Shown here: positions 8,426 to 22,155 of the stretch, in pieces
How positions within the stretch are numbered: the first letter of the stretch is position 1
Layout of the letters: each line of letters begins with the position of its first letter
NCBI RefSeq assembly: GCF_000194135.1
Contig: NC_015318.1
Coordinates: 386,501-450,500, forward strand
Length of the DNA stretch: 64,000 nt
Origin: Hippea maritima DSM 10411
Lineage (GTDB): Bacteria > Campylobacterota_A > Desulfurellia > Desulfurellales > Hippeaceae
Reading direction: 5' to 3'
Translations under genes and position numbers: made by a program
Notes under the pieces: generated by a model
What the model was told of the DNA's origin: nothing
Database searches by the model: none
Seen by the model: the letters and a program-made list of their open reading frames with translations, nothing else

Positions 8426-9372
8426 GTAGCATGCCCTAATCTTTTTAAAAGATGGAGGGTAAATAAAATTGTTGGGGGTTTGTATGTATTACTCGGTAAA
8501 AGCACTACTGAGTATTGGGAAAAATGTCTCACAGATTGCAAGAGAGCTAAAGATTGACAGGAAAACAGTCAGAAAGATTAAGAAAAAGGTAGAAAGTGGG
8601 GAGATTGAAACACCCACCATCAAAAGGAAAAGTATCCTTGATCCATACAAGGATGAAATCATTGAGTATTTAAAAAGTGGTCTCTCCGCTGTTTTAATCC
8701 ACCAGAAGTTAAAAGAAAAGCATAGTCTAAATGTAAGCTATAGCTCTGTGAAACGCTACATCAGGAAGCTAAAGCCAGGTGAGCCCTTCATCCCCTTAAT
8801 AAGCCCACCTGGCCAAGAAGCCCAAGTAGATTTCGGCTATGCCGGTTATTTCTATAATAGCAGAAGAAAAAAGAAAGTAAAGTACTGGATATTCTCAATG
8901 GTTTTGTCCTATTCGAGGTACAGATACTATGAGCTTGTGGATAACCAAAGTATACCGACATTCATAAACTGCCATATCAATGCATTTGAATATTTCTCTG
9001 GTGCACCAAAGGCTATAAAGATAGACAACCTAAAAAGCGGTGTATTGCATGTTAACTTCTATGAGCCTGAAATTCAGCATGAATATGCAAGGATGCTTGA
9101 GTATTACAACTCCTCTGCTGTTGCCTGTAGGGTGAGAAAACCAAATGAGAAGGGCAAGGTAGAATCCAGCATAAAATACATAAAGAACAACTTTCTAAAA
9201 AGCATAAGAGCGGAAGGAATAGAAGACATAGACACAGTCAAAGAGAAGCTTTTATTCTGGCAGGACAACATCTGTAATGCAAAGCTACACGGCACAACAA
9301 GAAAAATACCGAAGGATGAGTTTCTCAATGTAGAAAAGGAAAAACTCAACAGATTGCCAGATAGAAGATATG

Positions 9373-10751
9373 GAGACATCCCCTAATTTTTGTGTCTCTC
9401 TCATCATACCAAATCCCTCCTCACTCTTCAACTCCCTTCCCAAACTTAGCAACAAACATCTGATTCAGTTCATATCTTTTAGCCTTAATCAGAGGATTAA
9501 CATTCCAGGTTTTGTGTAATTTATCTGTTGCAATGAAAAGGGCAACATTTAGGATATCCATGGACTGGAAGAACCCTCCTTTCTTTAGCCTTTGTTTTTC
9601 AAAGGATGAATGTACAGATTCAACAGTGTTTGTTGAATTGATGTACTTTCTTATTACCTCAGGGTACTTTAAGAAGGCAAGGAGTTCTTCTTTTCTTGAG
9701 TCTAAATATTTGGTGTAGGTCTTGTATTGGTCTTTGAATCTGTCAATTATCTCTGTTTTGAAAATCTCTATCCCTTTTTCAAAGGTATCACAGGAGTATT
9801 TAATCTCCTTGAGCTTTTTGTTCACATATGAGGCATCCTCCTTTTTCATATGCTTGTATACGTTTCTTGATGCATGAACTGTGCATTTCTGAATATCCGA
9901 GTAAGGAAAGAAGGCTCTTATTGCCTCTGAGATTCCGTTGAAATCATCACAGATGAACATTAAGACCCTTTTCATTCCCCTGTTGATTAAATCCTGGAAT
10001 ACTTCCATCCAGGTGGATCTGTTCTCACTACCAAAGAATGAGTAATATCCAAGGAGTGTTTTTTGAGCATTTGTGTCTATCCCTACAACAGTGTAAACGA
10101 CAGCTCTCTTTACCCTTTTATCCTTTTCATCCTTTACCATACAGTGATAGGCGTCTATGTATAGAAAATAGTAGTTTTCCTGAAGTTCTTTGGATTTAAA
10201 TTCAAGCATCTGTGTCTTTATGTATTCAAATATCTCATCGTATGCTTTTTCACTAAAATCCAGTCCTCTCAATTTCATCTTGTGCACGATTTCCTGTTTT
10301 GAGTCTCCATTGATTAGGAAGGAGAAGATTAAATCCTCAAAGCTTTCATCATACCTTTGATATTTGGGAGGGAGAAGATGAGAGCGGAAGTTTCCGCTCC
10401 TTGTTCTTGGGACATCCAAATTCAGTTTACCAAGGCCTGTGTTTAGGCTCCTTTTGTAGGTTCCATTGCCTTTGTCTTCTGGGTTCTCAAGTAAGTACTC
10501 GTATCTTTCCTTACCCATTATCTCAATAAGTAGTCCTTCCATTAGGGTGGCCAGTTTATTCTTTCCGTATTCATCCAACTCCTTTACTACATCCATATCC
10601 ATGTTTGAGATTATCTCCTTAAGCATCTTTCTGTTCATCTCTTAAAGCTCCTCCATACTTAGCCTAATTTCAGAGTTCATTAGAACAGTTCATTAAACCC
10701 CACTCCATTTTAGTAGGTTTGTGGGGGAGACACAAAAATATTTTAAGTCCC
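9373..10751 (-). mobile_element. IS256-family insertion sequence inside istA
   Basis: A complete 1,379-bp element. The 8-base target duplication AAGATATG is present at 9365-9372 and 10752-10759. Imperfect terminal inverted repeats of about 25 bases share TTTTTGTGTCTC at their inner ends. It carries one transposase gene on the minus strand. The intact duplication and open transposase frame indicate a recent insertion. Confidence 0.92.
9421..10638 (-). CDS. IS256-family (Mutator-type) transposase
   Basis: 405 residues, full length for the family. The DDE triad is seen as Asp in YIDAYHC (about residue 168), Asp in FICDDFNG (about 233) and Glu in NTVESVHSSFEKQR (about 340). The N-terminal part includes the usual DVPRTRSGNF segment. 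GGAGG lies about 10 bases before the ATG. The frame has no defects, so the element may still be mobile. Confidence 0.93.
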   Translation of the reverse strand: MNRKMLKEIISNMDMDVVKELDEYGKNKLATLMEGLLIEIMGKERYEYLLENPEDKGNGTYKRSLNTGLGKLNLDVPRTRSGNFRSHLLPPKYQRYDESFEDLIFSFLINGDSKQEIVHKMKLRGLDFSEKAYDEIFEYIKTQMLEFKSKELQENYYFLYIDAYHCMVKDEKDKRVKRAVVYTVVGIDTNAQKTLLGYYSFFGSENRSTWMEVFQDLINRGMKRVLMFICDDFNGISEAIRAFFPYSDIQKCTVHASRNVYKHMKKEDASYVNKKLKEIKYSCDTFEKGIEIFKTEIIDRFKDQYKTYTKYLDSRKEELLAFLKYPEVIRKYINSTNTVESVHSSFEKQRLKKGGFFQSMDILNVALFIATDKLHKTWNVNPLIKAKRYELNQMFVAKFGKGVEE

Positions 10752-11338
10752 AAGATATGAGACCTACGATATTGCAAAAAGAACTGTAAACACCTACTCC
10801 CACATCTATTACAGGTACAACTACTACTCTGTGCCTGAAAAATACATATCAGAAAAGCTCAATATTAGGTCAAATGGAAATATAATGGAGATCTATGATT
10901 CATCGTTCAACTTAATAGCCACACATGAGCTTTCTCAATCAAAGGGTGAGTTCATAACAAAGGAAAGCCATAAACCCAAGATGAAGAAAAATCCCACAGA
11001 TTCAGAATACACCACCATGACGCTTGATATAGGTGAAAGCGCCTACCTGTTCTATAAAAGGCTAAGAAAAGAGAAACCTGCCTCATATCACAGGGTAATG
11101 AGAGGTGTAATGTCTCTTTCAAAGGGATACCCCAAAGAGACAATGGAGCTTGCATTCAAAAGGGCAATTGATTTCAACTGCATAAGCTATTCCTCTTTAA
11201 AAAGCATACTGAAGAATGAGCTCTACAACATTCCCTACGACAAACCAGACTCACCCATAGCCTTAGGTTTTTATAACCCACTAAGAGCTTACGATGAAAT
11301 GACAGATATAAAAGCAGATATGAAAACAGACATTATGA

Positions 11339-12133
11339 GTGGTGAGTGAAATGAAAGGGGTGGAAAATGTAAAAGATATGAAAAACATAGAAAGAAGACT
11401 AAAGGAGTTTAAACTCTCTGGCATTGCAAAGACACTTGAGGCAAGGAACAGGTATGCCATTGATAATAATCTGACATACATAGACTTCTTAAAACTCCTA
11501 TTAGAGGATGAATACATAAACAGGCAGAGCAACTCATTTAGAAAAAGACTTACAAAATCAAAGCTTGACACAACAAAGACTTTAGATAGCTATGATTTCA
11601 CATACCAACCAAAGCTAAACAAGAAAGAACTCTTAGACATTGCATCCTGCAGGTTCATAGAGGAGAAGAAAAACATCATATTCATGGGCAATCCTGGAGT
11701 TGGTAAAACCCACCTTGCAAATGCGATAGGATTAGAGGCCCTAAAACAGGGATATAAGGTCTTGTTCATCCATACCAACGATTTAATCCTAAAGCTCATA
11801 TCTGCAAGGGGAGATGGAACCTACACCTCAATACTGAACCAGATTCTATCATCTGACCTTCTGATAATAGATGAAGTAGGCTTTAAAAAGATCCCATCCA
11901 ACTATGTGGATGAGTTCTTTGAAGTGATAAGGAGAAGATATGAAAAGGGTTCAATTATAATCACCACTAATAGACCATTTGAGGAGTGGGCTAATATATT
12001 TTCAGATGCCGTTTTGGCCTCTGCCATAGTTGATAGACTTGTCCATCACTGCCATATATTCAAGATAACAGGTGAGAGCTATAGAATTAAACACCTAAAG
12101 GAGGCAAAAGATAATCAAAACAGTTTAAATTAA
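11339..12133 (+). CDS. istB: IS21 helper ATPase IstB
   Basis: AAA+ ATPase that works with IstA in target selection and strand transfer. Walker A GNPGVGKTHLA is at about residue 120 and Walker B LLIIDEVGF at about 180; an arginine-rich sensor region follows (RRRYEKGSIIITTNRPF). Length 264 is typical. The first codon is ambiguous: overlapping GTG codons at 11339 and 11342 and an ATG at 11351 are in frame, all overlapping or touching the end of istA, as usual in IS21 elements. Confidence 0.93.
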   Translation: MVSEMKGVENVKDMKNIERRLKEFKLSGIAKTLEARNRYAIDNNLTYIDFLKLLLEDEYINRQSNSFRKRLTKSKLDTTKTLDSYDFTYQPKLNKKELLDIASCRFIEEKKNIIFMGNPGVGKTHLANAIGLEALKQGYKVLFIHTNDLILKLISARGDGTYTSILNQILSSDLLIIDEVGFKKIPSNYVDEFFEVIRRRYEKGSIIITTNRPFEEWANIFSDAVLASAIVDRLVHHCHIFKITGESYRIKHLKEAKDNQNSLN

Positions 12134-12137
12134 CAAT

Positions 12138-12194
12138 CCAAGGGGTGGGGAATTTAAATGACCCAAAGGTGGGGAAATTTGGTTGACTTTAACA
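12138..12194 (-). repeat. IS21 right terminal repeat
   Basis: Inverted partner of 8369-8425, ending CTTTAACA on the plus strand, with two GGTGGGG motifs. Confidence 0.8.
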
Positions 12195-12945
12195 TTATAG
12201 CATCAGAGAGACCAGATAGTCCGTCTATAGCAAATATGAGGACATCCTCTACACCCCTGTTTTTTATCTCATTCAATACAGAAAGCCAGAATTTGGCAGA
12301 TTCTGTGTCTTGTATCCATATGCCAAGACAGTCTTTCTTACCCTCTAAATCAACTCCAATAATGGCATATACAGCTGTGTTTCTTACCATTCCATCCTTT
12401 TTTACTTTAAAGAAGAGAGCGTCAAGAAAGATGATTGAATAAATTTTAGATAATGGCCTATTTTGCCACTCTCTTGCTTTTTCTAAAACCTTATCTGTTA
12501 TTCTACTTATTGACTCCTTTAAAAAATCAAGTCCGTATATGGATTCCATATGCTTCTGTATATCGGTTGTCGTCATACCCTTTGCATACATGGATATGAT
12601 TGTCTCTTCAATACCGGATATGTCTTTTTGTCTCTTTGGCACTATCTTTGGTTAATAGAGTGCGTTTCTGTCCCTTGGGACAGTTAAATCTATCTCACCA
12701 AAGGTTGATTTTGCCTTCTTTTCGGTGTATCCGTTTCTTGCATTACCATTTTTCTCTTCCTTTTCTTCACCTTTCCTGTTTTTCCTCTCGTATCTTTCAT
12801 ACCCTAAAAGCTCTGTTAGCTCTCCCTCATAGATCGTTTCTATTGCATCCTTTATCATTCTTCTGAAGATGGCGTTTAAATCTTCTTGATTTGACAGCTT
12901 TCCCTGTTTCATGAGCTTTCTTATCTCTTCCCTGTTCACAAGCAT
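12195..12945 (-). pseudogene. IS256-type transposase, truncated and with an internal stop
   Basis: An older relic of a different IS256-family element. The N-terminal piece (12945-12652) reads to IDLTVPRDRN, then a TAA stop at 12654-12652; the frame continues after it with PKIVPKRQKDISG. Intact relatives have a Glu at the stop position (GSFEPKIV), so this is probably a nonsense change. The protein continues through the first catalytic Asp (IIFLDALFFKV) to about the second (FAIDGLSG), and is then cut off by the IS21 right end at 12194/12195. The C-terminal half is missing. Confidence 0.85.
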
Positions 12946-12965
12946 AAATAAATCCTCCTTTTTCT

Positions 12966-13032
12966 GACAGAAGCAAGGCTTCTGTCCTTATTTTTATCCA
13001 ATACCGGATAGATAATCAAACTATCTGGTATT
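12966..13032. promoter_or_regulatory. Two hairpins in the leader of the IS256-type relic
   Basis: A perfect 9-base stem (GACAGAAGC at 12966-12974, GCTTCTGTC at 12978-12986) is followed on the plus strand by CTTATTTTT, so it can act as a terminator against transcription entering from the left. A second stem, AATACCGGATAG with CTATCTGGTATT, spans about 13000-13032 with one mismatch. Confidence 0.5.
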
Positions 13033-13172
13033 AACTGTCAGTTAGGAGGATTTACACAGTTTGTGAGACAGAGCCGTTTTTACTCTACCTATGAGGCATT
13101 GAAACAATTACTTTGTCAAATACGTTCTTGAGTGGGAAACAGTGGAAATAACAACTAAAATCCACACCCTTT

Positions 13173-13268
13173 CGGAAAGTATTTTTCACATAGTGCTGGA
13201 AAGCAGTTTTCCCATACCTATGGAAAACAGAATTCACACCCCTTTGGAAAATAGAATCCCCATACATT
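13173..13268 (+). repeat. Four tandem 24-base repeats, probable end of a second IS21-like element
   Basis: Units start at 13173, 13197, 13221 and 13245; each begins CGGAAA or TGGAAA and ends with a C/A-rich tract. Units diverge at many positions but the 24-base period is exact. A fifth, longer relative is at about 13143-13172. The array directly follows an istB remnant, where IS21 elements carry their repeated transposase-binding sites. Confidence 0.7.
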
Positions 13269-13893
13269 CAGATGGTTCCAACCTCCTTTCTATTTGATAG
13301 TCTGTAAGATTCACCATCAAGTGTAAAAATATGGGCATGGTGTAGTAATCTATCAAGCATAGCTGTTGTCATAATCTCATCACCCATCATCTTGGCCCAT
13401 ACGGCAAAAGACTTATTTGATGTGATAACAATTGACTGTTTCTCATACATTTCACTGACAAGATTGAAAAACAGGTTTGCCTCTTTTCTCTCTATGGGGG
13501 TATAGCCTATCTCATCAATGATTAAGAGGTCGCTTTTTAGTATTTTGTTCAACCTGAATCCTGATGTTCTCTGTAAATCTGCTGTTTTTAGAATCTTCAT
13601 CAGGTTTGATATTCTCTCAAAGCAGACAGAATACCCCTTCCCAATAGCCTCAAAACCAAGAGCTATTGCAAGGTGGGTCTTTCCAAGGCCTGGAGGACCA
13701 AAGAACAGTATATTTTCCTTCTTATCAATCCAGGCAAAATCAAGCAGTTGCGATATTTTGCTTTTTGCAATACCTTTAACCCTACCGAATTCAAATCCCT
13801 CAATACTCTTCTTTATAGGGAAGTGTGCTGCTGAAATACTCCGTCTATACTTTCTTTGAGCTTTGTCCTCTAACTTTATACTTAGATTGCATT
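13268..13893 (-). pseudogene. IstB-type ATPase, 5'-truncated
   Basis: A different IstB from the intact one at 11.3-12.1 kb. The frame is open from about 13893 to the stop at 13268-13270. It contains Walker A FGPPGLGKTHLAIALG (about 13680) and Walker B LLIIDEIGYTP, then the usual C-terminus DRLLHHAHIFTLDGESYR. About 50 N-terminal residues and the whole istA partner are missing, and no start codon fits. With the tandem repeats downstream it forms the remnant of a second IS21-type element. Confidence 0.8.
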
Positions 13894-14408: not shown

Positions 14409-14780
14409 TTAATATTGTCTGCAGTATGTATAAGACATACAATTAAAATTAGAGTTTGTGTAGCATTTGCAATCACAGTTATTAAGATAAGGTGCTCCTA
14501 TAGGGCAGCATACATACGGATTTCTATCGGTTCCTCCGCAGGTATATGTCATGCAAGTCAAAGCACCTGGGCATGGATTGTTGTAAGCTACAGATAACAC
14601 AGAGATCGGCTTTTTATAGCTATTTGCTATATCATAAAATATGCCAATATCAGTTTTTGCAGCATTGAGAGACATATCAGTACTATTAGAATAATTTAAC
14701 ATATAGCAGTTTTTTGTATATGAAATAGAGGGTATAACTAACATAAATGCTGCTAATACTATTATTATTAACAACTTCAT
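14409..14780 (-). CDS. Small secreted cysteine-rich protein
   Basis: 123 residues with a clear signal peptide (MKLLIIIVLAAFMLVIPSISY). The mature part carries 11 cysteines, mostly in the last 60 residues (for example CMTYTCGG, YVCCPIG, NCDCKC), and is rich in Tyr, Asn and Ser, as expected of a disulfide-stabilised exported protein. I do not recognise the family. AGGAGG precedes the ATG by 7 bases and overlaps the stop codon of the broken gene upstream, so the genes are co-transcribed. Confidence 0.75.
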   Translation of the reverse strand: MKLLIIIVLAAFMLVIPSISYTKNCYMLNYSNSTDMSLNAAKTDIGIFYDIANSYKKPISVLSVAYNNPCPGALTCMTYTCGGTDRNPYVCCPIGAPYLNNCDCKCYTNSNFNCMSYTYCRQY

Positions 14781-15120: not shown

Positions 15121-16842
15121 TTAGTTACCTCCTTTCACTAATAATTTAGAAATGCACGCTTTGGAGCATTCCTCTTTTGTTTTAAAAGGAACACTGCCCC
15201 CACAACCTCCCCAGATAAACGGTTTGCATATATTTTCTTGTTTGTTGTAATAGTATCTCCAAAATAGAGCTTCGCACGGGCCTCTATCGTAATATAAAAA
15301 ACAGCGTTTATTTTTACGTTTATCCAGTATGCCTCCCCATTCAACCGCAGTAAAGCCAACTCTTTTAGGAGTTACGATTTTCTGCTCAGAAAGTATTATC
15401 TTTTTAGACAGCGGCTTGAAGTAAAATATAAATCTTAAAAAAGTATCCGGTTTTGGTTTAATTTCAATATTCATGTGCTTGTTTAGAAAATCACCACTCA
15501 ATAGTTTTATTTCATAGTATTTTGCTTTTGGCAGTTCCTTGAGCCAATACTCTTCAAATTGTAATTTTTCTTTTTTGTTTAATCCAATTTTGAATAAGTA
15601 TGTATCAAACCATTTTTTTAGATTTTGGTATTCTACGACCCATCCGCTTTTGGGTAGTGTTAAAGAGTTTAACTGAGCTTCGTACATAAGATAGTCATAC
15701 CCACCTGAAATATTGCCGCTCGGATACGCTGTAATTTTCCAGATGTGTGAATATGGAGGCACAGTTTTTGTAATCTTCCCATCAATATTAAGCAGGATGT
15801 TTATATTTAATTTCGTTTTTGGATAGAGGTAGATGGCCGGTTTTTTTACAGGCGGTTTGTTGCCTACTGCATCTTCCCACGGAAAGCTATGATATACGGA
15901 AGAATCATTGTTAGAGGTATATCCAATGGCTTTTTTGTATTTATTCGTTATATCAACAAAAATATCATTCTTAAATTTATAACTACCCCCGTAACTTAGC
16001 ATTTGAATGAAGATACTTTTATTTTTGAAAAAATTCTTGGCGTCCGGCAAAATACGGTTAAATTCATCTATAGTGATACTATCTGATGTAGTTGCTCTTA
16101 AATATTTTACACCCAGGCATCCTTCATAAAGAGATTCAAGCGGGTTGCAGACTGTTCTTGGTGATATAAGAATCAGATCAATTATACCGGATCCACCAAA
16201 TGTATTTGACGTTATTAAAGGATAGTATAATTTCTTGCTGTGAAATCTATACTCTATAGGCTGAACAAAGCGCTGTTTTTTGTTTACCTTTACCAAATCA
16301 AAGGCAAAATAGTTTATTCCTTTATTTAGATAGCTGTTTACTACCATTTCAACTTCTGGATAGCTATTTTTTACAGGCAATCCTTTGCTTTTAAAGAAAT
16401 CATTAATCCACTCTCTGAGATGTTCTGTACTATTAATTTTAATTACCGTTAAATCGTGTGCCCCTATTTTTTTGTTTAGTTTAATTTCAACACTCTTAGT
16501 TGTTGGTGTGACGCCTTTATATTGAATTATAAATTGCAAATTGTGTTTCTTTACAACTTTTATTATATTTTTGAAACTATCTTTGGGCGCAAGTTGTACT
16601 CTGGGTTTAGAAGGAAAAGGTATAAATCTTAGAATATGACTGCTGCTGCCAGACTGCAAATCTGTTCCTAGGATCAAAACCTCTTCATTGAGATTGTAAA
16701 AAATAATTGCTTTTTGGCTGTTTTCTTGAACCTTTGCGCCATATGCCACTATTCTTCCCATGTCCGCATAAGCAGGTATATTCACTATTAAAAGGAACAA
16801 AATAGATAGCAGTGTAATTTTTTTAAGTATGTGTTCAGTCAT
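15121..16842 (-). CDS. Secreted multidomain protein with C-terminal Kunitz/BPTI-like domain
   Basis: 573 residues with a signal peptide ending at about residue 26 (NIPAYA before D). The N-terminal ~200 residues resemble DUF2330-type exported proteins (QKAIIFYN; LRFIPFPSKPRV). Residues ~330-505 form a second module that starts KKPAIYLYPKTK and ends GFTAVEWGG, a pattern I know from uncharacterised bacterial exported proteins. Residues ~511-566 are a Kunitz fold: cysteines 514, 523, 539, 547, 559 and 563 have intervals 8-15-7-11-3 (BPTI 8-15-7-12-3), with the GPC, RYYYN and FIWGGC motifs. The P1 position is Glu, so trypsin inhibition is unlikely. It starts 3 bases after the upstream gene. Confidence 0.8.
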   Translation of the reverse strand: MTEHILKKITLLSILFLLIVNIPAYADMGRIVAYGAKVQENSQKAIIFYNLNEEVLILGTDLQSGSSSHILRFIPFPSKPRVQLAPKDSFKNIIKVVKKHNLQFIIQYKGVTPTTKSVEIKLNKKIGAHDLTVIKINSTEHLREWINDFFKSKGLPVKNSYPEVEMVVNSYLNKGINYFAFDLVKVNKKQRFVQPIEYRFHSKKLYYPLITSNTFGGSGIIDLILISPRTVCNPLESLYEGCLGVKYLRATTSDSITIDEFNRILPDAKNFFKNKSIFIQMLSYGGSYKFKNDIFVDITNKYKKAIGYTSNNDSSVYHSFPWEDAVGNKPPVKKPAIYLYPKTKLNINILLNIDGKITKTVPPYSHIWKITAYPSGNISGGYDYLMYEAQLNSLTLPKSGWVVEYQNLKKWFDTYLFKIGLNKKEKLQFEEYWLKELPKAKYYEIKLLSGDFLNKHMNIEIKPKPDTFLRFIFYFKPLSKKIILSEQKIVTPKRVGFTAVEWGGILDKRKNKRCFLYYDRGPCEALFWRYYYNKQENICKPFIWGGCGGSVPFKTKEECSKACISKLLVKGGN

Positions 16843-16845
16843 GGC

Positions 16846-17199
16846 CTATTCCCAGTTAACACATTCACGGCTGACGCACACCTTTTTAGTGCAATACTTC
16901 GGGACATCCTCGCATATTATACCTGCGTCTGATTTCCAGCATTTCCTTGTGCTTCCGCACTGAAACTGTTCGTTAACCCAATGTGTGCATCTATAGCTCA
17001 CACATTTTGGTGTATGGTGATATGTATCTGTTGATGTTGAGGGCGGATTGGCAGGAGCTGGCGTGGGCGTAGGAAGATCGGAGTCTGAGACAGAGCCACT
17101 TTGGCCGTTTGTATACCAAGATCCGCCAGCATGACTAATTGAGGTAAACGTAAATAATAATAGGGAACTCATAAAAAATACAAGCATTAGTTTTTTCAT
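16846..17199 (-). CDS. Small secreted cysteine-rich protein with Pro/Thr linker
   Basis: 117 residues. A signal peptide (MKKLMLVFFMSSLLLFTFTS, ending SHA before G) is followed by a Ser/Gly-rich segment, a Pro/Thr-rich linker (TPTPAPANPPSTSTD) and a C-terminal module with 8 cysteines, including CVSYRCTHW and CVSRECVNW, which look like a duplicated half-motif. Family unknown. AAGGAG precedes the ATG by 6 bases. Immediate coupling to the Kunitz-domain gene suggests they act together outside the cytoplasm. Confidence 0.78.
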   Translation of the reverse strand: MKKLMLVFFMSSLLLFTFTSISHAGGSWYTNGQSGSVSDSDLPTPTPAPANPPSTSTDTYHHTPKCVSYRCTHWVNEQFQCGSTRKCWKSDAGIICEDVPKYCTKKVCVSRECVNWE

Positions 17200-17680: not shown

Positions 17681-17917
17681 ATGTCTGAGAATGAGAATGA
17701 TAGAAAAGAGAGTGGAGGCACCAACATGGAAGTGAAGAGAATAAGAAAGATAGTAGGGGCAGAAAACCTGAAAGTAGGTTTTCTGCCCGTTAAATCTTTC
17801 TCTTTCTCAAGGGCTGATGCAGCCCACATCCTCTTTTGCATATTCAAATCACTGGATTTGAATATAATAGGAAGACCCATAAAATTCCTAAAGGGATGGA
17901 GGCTGCATCATGGATAG
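17681..17917 (+). CDS. Short open frame upstream of transposase, carrying two perfect hairpins
   Basis: 78 codons, overlapping the transposase start by 8 bases. It may be the first frame of a two-frame insertion sequence or not translated at all; no domain is recognised. The DNA holds a perfect 13-base stem (GGGCAGAAAACCT at 17757-17769 with 17776-17788) and a perfect 11-base stem (17840-17850 with 17855-17865). Such structures fit regulation of transposase expression. Confidence 0.35.
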   Translation: MSENENDRKESGGTNMEVKRIRKIVGAENLKVGFLPVKSFSFSRADAAHILFCIFKSLDLNIIGRPIKFLKGWRLHHG

Positions 17918-18865
17918 TATATACCACACTTTGAGAAAATCAAACCCTGCAAGTGCAAGAATTTTGGTCAGAAAGGTTTTAGAGAAAAACAACGGCAATG
18001 TCTCAAAAACAGCAAGAATACTTGGCATATCAAGGGCTACAGTGAGAAGGGCAAGGGATGGAGAACTAAATGACTTATCAAGAAGACCAAAGAACATAAG
18101 AAAAAAGATAGGCTGTTCTCTTGAAAAACTCATTGTTGAAGAGGCAAAAAGCACAGGGTACAGATACAGGCTTCTAAGCTATTACCTAAAGAACAAATAC
18201 TCCATAGAGATAAGCGAAAACACAATAAAGAAGGTTTTAAAGAGAAACAGGGTGAGGAAAAAGAAAATAAGGACTCTAAACAAAAACAGAAGGCATCTTT
18301 ATGATTATGAACACCTGACGCCCTTTAGCCACCTTCAGATAGACACAAAACACATACTGGATGAAACATCTCTACCAAAGAGCGTGTATAGACACATAGA
18401 GAAATACGACCTGCCAAAATATGAATGGAACGCAATAGATGTAAAAACGAGAATGAGATTTACAGCTTACTCCCATACTCTTTCTGCATCCTTTGGATTT
18501 GCTTTTATCCTTTTTGTCGTACTGTGGTTAAAGCTGCACAATGTAAGGGGAAAAATAAACATAAGGTTGGACAACGGTTCTGAATTTGCATCCTCAAGCA
18601 GAAGAAAATTGGATGAATACAACGAATTCTTTTCAAAACTGAATGTAGAGTTAAAACCCATACCACCAGGTGCAAAACACCTCCAGGCTATAGTTGAAAA
18701 CTCACACAGAAAAGACGATGAATCCTTGAATATAGTAAGGTTTCCAACCTTACTACTGGAAGATATCATAAGGGTGATAAGTATGTGTGGCCTATCTGGT
18801 TCATTTGTTGCAAAAAAATTTGACAAATTGTTCGGTTTGAATATACTTAGTTTCGCAAGCATTGC

Positions 18866-18875
<10 letters not shown>
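17910..18875 (+). pseudogene. Integrase-core (DDE) transposase, 3' end lost at tRNA-Asn
   Basis: 321 codons. An N-terminal helix-turn-helix (GNVSKTARILGISRATVRRA, about residues 30-49) precedes an rve-type catalytic core with Asp in LQIDTKH, Asp in RLDNGSEFA and Glu in AIVENSHRKDDE. It resembles IS481/ISNCY-type enzymes. The open frame runs 10 bases into the tRNA-Asn gene, so the native C-terminus and the right terminal repeat are missing. It is therefore a truncated remnant. Confidence 0.75.
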
Positions 18876-18941
<66 letters not shown>

Positions 18942-19494: not shown

Positions 19495-19588
19495 GTATAA
19501 CGTTTTGTGGGTATCTGAAGTCCGAGCCGATAGGCGAGGATTTGGGCGGAGTGCCAAAGGCACGGAGCCAGATACCCGCTTGTTAAGT
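19495..19588. repeat. attC-like structured site 1
   Basis: Outer arms GTATAAC (19495-19501) and GTTAAGT (19582-19588; fits GTTRRRY) enclose a perfect 9-base stem, GGGTATCTG (19509-19517) with CAGATACCC (19569-19577), with two inner hairpins (GCC-GATA-GGC and GTGCC-AAA-GGCAC). 34 bases are identical to site 2 at 22065-22155. This matches the general layout of integron cassette recombination sites. Confidence 0.6.
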
Positions 19589-19711
19589 GACACCGTTAGG
19601 GGCAAGGTGCGAAGCACCGCAGAGTGCCCGCCGTCGCCTGAATTTAATAATATTCAACTAATATTTCTAAATTTATTAACAAGTTTAAATGTTGCTTTAT
19701 GTTCTTGGTTT

Positions 19712-20848
19712 TCAATATTTTATCTCCTTGAATAATATTTTCTGTTTATTGCAATCAATACTGAATTCTATATATCTTAAAGGTAAAATGCTATTTTTGC
19801 TATTAAAAGTCTTAAATGCTTTGATAAGTTCTTTATAGTTTTGTGTTGTTTTATCTTTTATTTCTCTCGAAATTATCATAGGCTCAATATCAGATGGACG
19901 ATTTGGTAAATAATATTGTTCAATCCAATCAACATATCTTTGCAATTGTGTTACTATTTCGGGATAAGCTTCAACTGATTTTAGTTCAATAGGAACAACT
20001 TTCCTATTTTGATCGTTGATTGAAAGCATTATGTCAATTCTTTGCATCCCAACACCACAAGACACTTCATTTCCTATCCATTCTATTGTCTGATTAAGGA
20101 ACATAGGAAGTTTTTCTAAATTTTGCAGTATATAAGCTTGAAGATGAACTTCAAACTGTTTTTTTGTACAGTATTTCTCAATTAATCTTGGTAAAATATT
20201 TATAATTTCTTTTCTTCCGTTATAACTGAAAAATTTAGTGCTAACTTCTATTTTCTGTGTAATTTTATTAAAAGTGTAACTCTGACCTTTTATACTTTTT
20301 CTGTTATTTTTATTACGTATTAAATTTATCAACCTTTCACTTTCATAGATTGTTATCATGGTATTACCGCGATTACCTTTTAGTTTACGATAAATTAAAC
20401 TCCATAACATCTGGTTAGGTGAATGAATGTATTTTATTTCATCTAGGGCCTCCCACTCAGTAACACCTTCTGGATATACTTGATGTGGTTCAATTATTGT
20501 TCTAAAAGTTAAAGATTTACCTAAACTTGATTTTAAGAATTGTTTATTATCATTATTATCTAAAAATGAAGGTGCTTCTTTTACTTTGAAAACACCATAA
20601 AATTTACCTTCTCTAATTCCCTCCCTAAAATTTTGTTGCAAGTAAAATATTGCGTAATCACCAGTCCTAACCCTTTGACTATCAGCAATCATTCCTACTA
20701 AGTTGTTTTCAGTTTGAGGATTAAGAGAGCTGCTTTTTTTATTGTTAAAATCTATTTTATGCTCTTTTGCACCGGTGCCAGCAAACATATATTCTAAATG
20801 ATATTTAAATGTAGTTGTATCTACAATAAATACATGTGTTGTTGCCAT
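19712..20848 (-). CDS. Probable restriction endonuclease (PUA/EVE-like N-domain plus PD-(D/E)XK nuclease)
   Basis: 378 residues, 2 bases after the methyltransferase gene, so a restriction-modification pair. The N-terminal ~150 residues (DYAIFYLQQNFREGIREGKF; YGVFKV) resemble PUA/EVE-type modified-base-reading domains. The C-terminal half has the NucS/DUF91-like nuclease core: Asp in RIDIMLSI, E-x-K in PIELKS, and QLQRYVDW. GAGGGG lies 6 bases before the ATG. The specificity is not predictable. Codon usage is AT-rich with many Asn and Ile, like its partner, consistent with joint acquisition. Confidence 0.72.
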   Translation of the reverse strand: MATTHVFIVDTTTFKYHLEYMFAGTGAKEHKIDFNNKKSSSLNPQTENNLVGMIADSQRVRTGDYAIFYLQQNFREGIREGKFYGVFKVKEAPSFLDNNDNKQFLKSSLGKSLTFRTIIEPHQVYPEGVTEWEALDEIKYIHSPNQMLWSLIYRKLKGNRGNTMITIYESERLINLIRNKNNRKSIKGQSYTFNKITQKIEVSTKFFSYNGRKEIINILPRLIEKYCTKKQFEVHLQAYILQNLEKLPMFLNQTIEWIGNEVSCGVGMQRIDIMLSINDQNRKVVPIELKSVEAYPEIVTQLQRYVDWIEQYYLPNRPSDIEPMIISREIKDKTTQNYKELIKAFKTFNSKNSILPLRYIEFSIDCNKQKILFKEIKY

Positions 20849-20850
20849 GG

Positions 20851-21993
20851 TTATCCCCTCTTTTTAAAAATTAATACATACTCATGCTTAAACACATAAA
20901 ATCCTCCTACTAAAGCACGATATCTCCAAAGTTCTTTCTGATTCCTTTTTGCTCTTGTTTCTTCAAAGTTTTTCACTATTATGCTCTTTAATACAAATTT
21001 TTCTCTTTTTAAAACTTCATTCATTACATAAAACCCTAATGGGATCCATTCTCCTTTAGAATATTTATCGCCTATCACAATACCTAAATATCGTCCTTCT
21101 TCCAATACCGGTAGAACATTATCTAAAACTTTACCAAACATTTCCAAAAACTTATCTACTGTTTTCGCATTTGACAAATCGTCTGGATTATTACTAAATT
21201 TTATTATGTCATGGTATGGTGGGTGTATAATGACAAGCTGAATCTTTTTTACATTTTTTTCTTCCAGAATTTTTTTTAAGTCAATTTGTGTGCTATCCCC
21301 TGTAATAATATCAGTAGTCACATTAAACCTGTTCGGCTCTTTTTCTATCAATTTTTTTGCTTTTTCTACCACATCTGGGTTTATCTCTATTCCAATACCA
21401 TTCCTACCTAACCTGCGACATTCTATTAATGTCGTCCCAGAACCAACAAGTGGATCTAAAACCCAATCTCCTTTTTTAGTATATCTTAACATTAATTGAT
21501 GTGGTATCTGAGGAATAAAATTGCCCCAATACCAGGCATGGTGTGCTCCAGAAGTATCTCTTTTATCAAATATCCATAAGCTGTCTGTAATTATTTCATC
21601 ATATTCTTTCCATCTATTGAGATTTATATCATTTATCTTATTCGTTTTAATCTCTGTCAATGCTTTTTTTAATCTATTTATATAATATCTTGTCCTTTCT
21701 AAAGTAAGTGTCTCCTCAATCTGCGTTAATTCATTTATTAAATAGTTATATTTTATTTCAATTGTATCGCCATTCTTGTCAATATTTAAAATACCAATTT
21801 TATCTTTATTTGTAGAAGTTAGATTTGATTTCAGTTCTTTTAGTTTTATCTTCAATTCTTGAATATTTTGTATTCTAATTAAATTATCTAAAATTTCTAA
21901 GAATTTTGATTTGTTAATTATAATGCTTCGATTTGAGAATGCTCGACTTTTCTCTTTAAATAATGTTTCTTGAATATGCTTCTTTTTCTGCAT
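20851..21993 (-). CDS. DNA methyltransferase (N4-cytosine/N6-adenine type)
   Basis: About 380 residues. The AdoMet-binding motif I DPLVGSGTTLIE (about residue 180) comes before the catalytic motif IV IHPPYHD (about residue 255), with a target-recognition region after it. The N-terminal ~120 residues are helical and Lys-rich. I take ATG at 21993, 6 bases after GAGAGG; an upstream in-frame ATG at 22008 overlaps that site. It is first in the pair with the nuclease. Family comparison suggests N4C or N6A methylation of host sites; which base cannot be said. Confidence 0.88.
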   Translation of the reverse strand: MQKKKHIQETLFKEKSRAFSNRSIIINKSKFLEILDNLIRIQNIQELKIKLKELKSNLTSTNKDKIGILNIDKNGDTIEIKYNYLINELTQIEETLTLERTRYYINRLKKALTEIKTNKINDINLNRWKEYDEIITDSLWIFDKRDTSGAHHAWYWGNFIPQIPHQLMLRYTKKGDWVLDPLVGSGTTLIECRRLGRNGIGIEINPDVVEKAKKLIEKEPNRFNVTTDIITGDSTQIDLKKILEEKNVKKIQLVIIHPPYHDIIKFSNNPDDLSNAKTVDKFLEMFGKVLDNVLPVLEEGRYLGIVIGDKYSKGEWIPLGFYVMNEVLKREKFVLKSIIVKNFEETRAKRNQKELWRYRALVGGFYVFKHEYVLIFKKRG

Positions 21994-22064
21994 TTTTAAC
22001 CTCTCCATAAAGTTATTGAAATTACTTTCTTTTTAAATCTTCCCAAGGCGACGGCGGGCATTTC

Positions 22065-22155
22065 ACTTAACGTGTTGCGGGTATCTGAAGTCCGAGCCGA
22101 TAGGCGAGGATTGGGGCGAAGGCGTAAGCCGTAGCCAGATACCCTCTTGTTGTCC
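22065..22155. repeat. attC-like structured site 2
   Basis: Outer arms ACTTAAC (22065-22071; fits RYYYAAC) and GTTGTCC (22149-22155), the same 9-base stem (22079-22087 with 22136-22144) and the same 34-base block as site 1. The second inner hairpin differs but keeps pairing (GGC-GTAA-GCC). TCACTTAAC here is the exact complement of GTTAAGTGA at site 1. Confidence 0.6.

Follow-up and report, generated by a model that had tools for sequence, protein, structure and literature searches.

The window, i.e., the whole 64-kb stretch of Hippea maritima DNA analyzed here, carries on its minus strand a CDS (15121–16842) that starts with ATG and encodes a 573-residue protein. Translation of this open reading frame (ORF) and a Pfam scan divide it into an exported DUF2330 module, a middle domain and a C-terminal Kunitz domain. 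The hydrophobic N-terminus of the translation is a predicted signal peptide (residues 1–26; 16765–16842, minus strand) with cleavage near PAYA/DMG, and the mature part opens with ADMG, which does not vary among relatives. The DUF2330 module (residues 27–306; 15925–16764, minus strand) is assigned by its match to PF10092, its identity to relatives and its position in a clade, while the middle domain (residues 329–507, KKPAIYLYP...GFTAVEWGG; 15322–15858, minus strand) has no Pfam entry and is defined by relatives elsewhere; we coined the name “IYLYP” for it from its motif. The Kunitz/BPTI domain (residues 514–563; 15154–15303, minus strand), with six cysteines and the bacterial “WGGCGGSVPF” form, is identified by PF00014, AlphaFold2 and Foldseek, and alignment to BPTI and bacterial domains places the predicted P1 residue, Glu524 (15271–15273, minus strand), in the reactive-site loop GPC-E-A. 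The DUF2330 match and the recurrence of the middle domain agree with the initial annotation, which described an exported protein with two further modules of uncharacterised function. The host strain, H. maritima MH2T, is a free-living anaerobic thermophile from submarine hot vents (PMC3156395).

The gene lies between two small ORFs encoding exported Cys-rich proteins, neither of which has a Pfam match or relatives in the fetched loci. The upstream one (117 residues; 16846–17199, minus strand) lies only 3 bp before the CDS start and is therefore probably co-transcribed; the downstream one (123 residues) occupies 14409–14780 on the same strand. Pfam further reveals, on one side of the gene, an insertion-sequence block (8469–13600) with an IS21-type rve and IstB, a Mutator transposase and broken copies, in which a Mutator transposase split into two ORFs and a truncated IstB (12154–12945 and 13268–13600) represent decaying insertion sequences. 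Amid these transposase fragments, Rfam gives a single CRISPR-DR2 match (13076–13105, minus strand) just above the gathering score, perhaps a remnant or a chance hit; no CRISPR repeats are described in the genome paper (PMC3156395). On the other side of the gene, an integrase-like ORF (17910–18875, plus strand; Fis-type HTH by Pfam, rve below cut-off) terminates 10 bp inside a tRNA-Asn gene (18866–18941, ARAGORN). At 19498–22121, a restriction-like nuclease (NucS/YhcG-type, below cut-off) is paired with a DNA methylase between two direct repeats of 54 nt that share 93% identity and lie 2570 bp apart; the arrangement looks like a mobile cassette. PADLOC found nothing, and the 64-kb window contains neither a protease gene nor a serpin gene to indicate a target. 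Around the site, gene order shares bioB alone with the complete genome of a congener.

The C-terminus is a genuine Kunitz/BPTI domain, chance being excluded. PF00014 matches residues 514–563 with 46.9 bits (E 3e-12; curated cut-off 21), the only such match in the whole 1,694,430-bp genome, and a phmmer search against PDB sequences retrieves 117 distinct sequences at E ≤ 0.01, led by SmCI (1e-23). AlphaFold2, run with a 36-row alignment, predicts the domain at a pLDDT of 90–95, and the best 50 PDB matches in Foldseek are all Kunitz domains, with rmsd values mostly of 1.1–2 and TM-scores by target up to 0.86. Both the profile score and the predicted fold, which superposes on Kunitz domains in the PDB, thus bear out the identification made from the sequence at first reading. 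Recounting likewise gives the spacing 8-15-7-11-3 noted there, with cysteines at 514, 523, 539, 547, 559 and 563 (BPTI has 12 at the fourth step), and the P1 residue directly after GPC is Glu524, as had been stated. The Pfam scan of the protein gives no match to the soybean-type Kunitz family (STI, PF00197), a β-trefoil of about 180 residues.

The initial annotation implied that such a domain is an animal oddity in a bacterium, a view that our survey does not support. We searched GTDB genomes with a degenerate DNA signature of the Kunitz core that ignores what comes after GGC; it matched at least 117 genome stretches, some of them spurious, with more than 110 bacterial Kunitz proteins among the matches listed. 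Among these, we classified 115 bacterial and archaeal domains. The xGxVPF form, one residue short past GGC as in Hippea, is the majority form (83 of 115 among the matches listed), and the GNxNNF form, shared by the eight animal domains compared, accounts for the other 32 listed, with the reservation that many relatives are MAGs and that GNxNNF matches in MAGs could include eukaryotic contamination. The VPF set among the matches listed includes cultured Alcanivorax, Hymenobacter, Runella and Marichromatium as well as two Campylobacterota MAGs (L024 and L080), and a signal-peptide-like N-terminus is present in 80 of the 82 scorable VPF-type proteins listed. VPF-type Kunitz proteins also occur in two archaeal (Woesearchaeota) MAGs, L056 and L099. 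Other architectures encountered in the survey are a Planctomycetota contig carrying eight or more Kunitz motifs (L032), a Saprospiraceae protein with six tandem Kunitz domains (L118) and a Neomarinimicrobiota Kelch-dockerin-Kunitz protein (L107). In a tree built from all columns, every VPF row falls on one side of a single branch (SH-aLRT 86), and without the defining columns the form still requires 8 changes vs 34 expected by shuffling; the VPF form thus appears to cluster in the tree, its single origin not being proven. In both trees, the Hippea row lies nearest to the L113 and L039 Kunitz domains.

Bacterial Kunitz domains are scarcely mentioned in the literature searched, and a paper devoted to them suspects transfer from animals (PMC11511053). 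The idea that a vent bacterium recently acquired an animal Kunitz exon finds some support in the patchy occurrence: a PF00014-type domain is found in one of the 25 genomes of the phylum set and is absent from the 24 others, including eight congeners; this makes it an accessory trait in Hippea. Mobile elements surround the gene, and hydrothermal vents teem with animals. However, the Hippea domain is 63–66% identical to its nearest bacterial relatives vs at most about 47% to the animal domains examined, its shortened VPF form groups with bacteria, and the DUF2330–Kunitz fusion is present in other phyla. We therefore reject such a transfer as highly improbable. On sequence grounds, the Hippea domain appears to belong to a distinctly bacterial lineage.

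The first module connects the protein to a wider set of inhibitor fusions. PF10092 matches residues 29–212 only marginally (25.5 bits vs a cut-off of 24.7), with relatives scoring similarly (L039, 25.4) or below the cut-off (L113, L165 and L154), and a structure prediction of DUF2330 alone reaches a pLDDT of only 49.5. Over the module, the Hippea protein is 44–49% identical to L039, L113 and L081 and 50% identical to L154. In L039 (Syntrophaceae UBA6087), L113 (Deltaproteobacteria SL3-B22.2) and L081 (an Elusimicrobia MAG), DUF2330 is followed directly by a VPF-type Kunitz domain, and L165 (G744) is a fourth such case. In L154 (G091), a serpin (346 bits) takes the place after DUF2330, and its reading frame stops short of the last strand, perhaps through a frameshift or a sequencing error. 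The DUF2330 tree unites the Hippea module with these five in one clade (97/97), and DUF2330 proteins without an inhibitor fall outside it. Four of those outside end differently, two of them in an F5/8C-like part that scores below the cut-off; L147 and L158 have no such C-terminal addition. The inhibitor-bearing clade is sporadic, occurring in one of 295 Elusimicrobiota genomes and in three of 42 genomes in the class of G025. The initial annotation regarded the fusion itself as new; this does not hold for the DUF2330–Kunitz pairing, which is present in at least four other genomes, while the three-part combination with the middle domain appears unique to Hippea. DUF2330 is not mentioned by name in the literature searched, and its link to protease inhibitors is undescribed there; the Hippea protein adds a new combination to a known inhibitor family.

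The middle domain, too, recurs in other exported proteins, and in three other genomes it keeps company with protease inhibitors. It is 48–51% identical to proteins in L155, L156 and L157, from three of 395 sampled genomes in the phylum of G025, and tblastn locates relatives of 30–33% identity in a protein of a Ruminococcus plasmid and in a faecal phage. This domain was the only part of the protein to be matched when plasmids and phages were searched by tblastn and viral contigs were scanned with the whole protein, and degenerate searches of viral contigs for it returned no relatives. Neither this domain nor DUF2330 has a solved-structure relative, the middle domain being without any PDB match. 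Three clusters, a small sample, could be counted. In L155, the middle-domain gene lies 26 bp past an ankyrin-Kunitz gene; in L156, an ankyrin-Kunitz gene precedes it by 2.6 kb, with an IS110-type transposase-like gene (identified by eye) in between; and in L157, two middle-domain genes flank a complete serpin gene (430 bits), whose product is 49% identical to the DUF2330-fused serpin of L154. Homologous exported proteins of ~1000–1200 residues adjoin the inhibitor genes of L154 (5181–8801), L156 (11942–15016) and L157 (13434–16655), with 72% identity between L156 and L157 and 32–33% to L154, and those of L154 and L157 carry a PDZ domain. In L039 and L113, an exported ankyrin-repeat gene follows the DUF2330-Kunitz gene, overlapping it by 4 bp in L113. 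The exchange of Kunitz and serpin on one DUF2330 clade and in the same type of cluster points to exported protease inhibition, and this swap between unrelated inhibitor folds provides the strongest argument for protease inhibition by the Hippea Kunitz domain.

From the P1 glutamate, the initial annotation considered a non-trypsin target, or a structural or binding role, likely; the survey does not sustain reading this residue as a sign against inhibition. Among the matches listed, 14 of 83 VPF-type bacterial domains have Glu or Asp at P1, and all four DUF2330-Kunitz relatives, the nearest ones, have Lys; about 100 of the 115 classified domains have Ala at P1′. In the GNxNNF bacterial loci (e.g., L037, L057, L091 and L040), P1 is Asp or Glu in 21 of 32 listed, and many of these acidic loci come from Myxococcota and other deltaproteobacterial MAGs. 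The P1 glutamate of Hippea suggests that the target may have changed; it would disfavor trypsin and favor a Glu-accepting enzyme. Few well-known S1 proteases suit a glutamate at P1.

We propose that the gene product is probably an exported multi-domain anti-protease whose Kunitz domain acts as a canonical inhibitor of an S1-type serine protease. The signal peptide would direct the protein to Sec export, and, as expected from fold and spacing, the six cysteines would form three disulfides. A candidate disulfide former is a VKOR-like protein encoded in the genome, which scores 26.8 bits against a Pfam cut-off of 27.5 and contains CYFC and CPHC motifs. Outside the cytoplasm, the Kunitz domain would block an S1-type serine protease by the standard mechanism, with its Cys-Glu-Ala loop entering the active site and Glu at P1 presumably shifting the target away from trypsin-like enzymes, while the DUF2330 and middle modules may place the protein at the cell surface. 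Export, the VKOR-like protein and the canonical P1 loop would all fit protease inhibition. The protein may have arisen from a DUF2330-Kunitz protein by insertion of the middle domain, which elsewhere neighbors Kunitz or serpin genes.

Some Kunitz domains are not inhibitors, those of certain animal proteins serving in binding or structure instead, and we know of no measured inhibition by a VPF-type domain. The Hippea domain could accordingly be a disulfide-stabilized binding or structural module, such as an adhesion tail, a reading to which the P1 glutamate, the variability of P1 across bacteria, the fusion to surface-type modules and the Kelch/dockerin or ankyrin fusions elsewhere lend some weight. 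Against it, Kunitz and serpin domains alternate within one DUF2330 clade and one kind of gene cluster, the GxC-P1-Ala loop with its prevalent P1′ Ala is retained, and P1 is basic in related modules, so that we consider this reading unlikely. An inhibitor might instead keep one of the cell's own periplasmic proteases in check rather than a foreign one, and in a Gram-negative cell with a periplasm, where S1-family HtrA enzymes are general, targets for such housekeeping would be at hand. Yet the sporadic distribution, both in the phylum of Hippea and in the DUF2330 clade among Elusimicrobiota, and the abundance of insertion sequences nearby favor an accessory role of the interaction type, making housekeeping control improbable. 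Returning to an exported anti-protease, we tentatively extend it, with somewhat more doubt than confidence, to a broader scheme in which the DUF2330 clade is a bacterial carrier for interchangeable inhibitors within a modular, transfer-spread anti-protease locus that also comprises ankyrin proteins, the IYLYP domain and the large, partly PDZ-bearing protein; Hippea would have fused three parts and changed Lys to Glu.

These findings outline a widespread bacterial Kunitz group with its own sequence form, and the two unrelated inhibitor folds swapped on one module offer a way into the function of the uncharacterised DUF2330 family. If the proposal is true, antiprotease defence would count as an exported function of free-living anaerobes. 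The Kunitz domain, coming from an organism that grows at 40–65 °C, may also serve as a stable scaffold.

The only experimental bacterial precedent found is F6W77 of Acinetobacter baumannii, whose Kunitz domains inhibit in vitro according to P1, with Arg directed to FXIa/FXa and Leu to elastase (PMC11511053). Like the Hippea protein it is an exported bacterial Kunitz protein, but it consists of five tandem Kunitz domains with Arg or Leu at P1 and lacks DUF2330 and the middle domain. The DUF2330-Kunitz proteins (L039, L113, L165 and L081) share with Hippea the signal peptide, the DUF2330 module and a C-terminal VPF-type Kunitz domain, yet differ in lacking the middle domain, in their P1 Lys and in a ~21-residue insertion within DUF2330. 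The DUF2330-serpin of G091 resembles Hippea in having no such insertion, whereas a serpin stands where Hippea has the middle domain and the Kunitz domain. Compared with the Kunitz/BPTI family at large (PF00014; MEROPS I2), the Hippea domain retains the six cysteines, the GPC loop, RYYYN and GGC, and its predicted fold superposes with an rmsd of about 1.2–1.6; however, it is one residue shorter past GGC (GGSVPF for GNxNNF), carries Trp in place of Tyr35 and Glu at P1, and lies C-terminally in a large bacterial protein destined for export.
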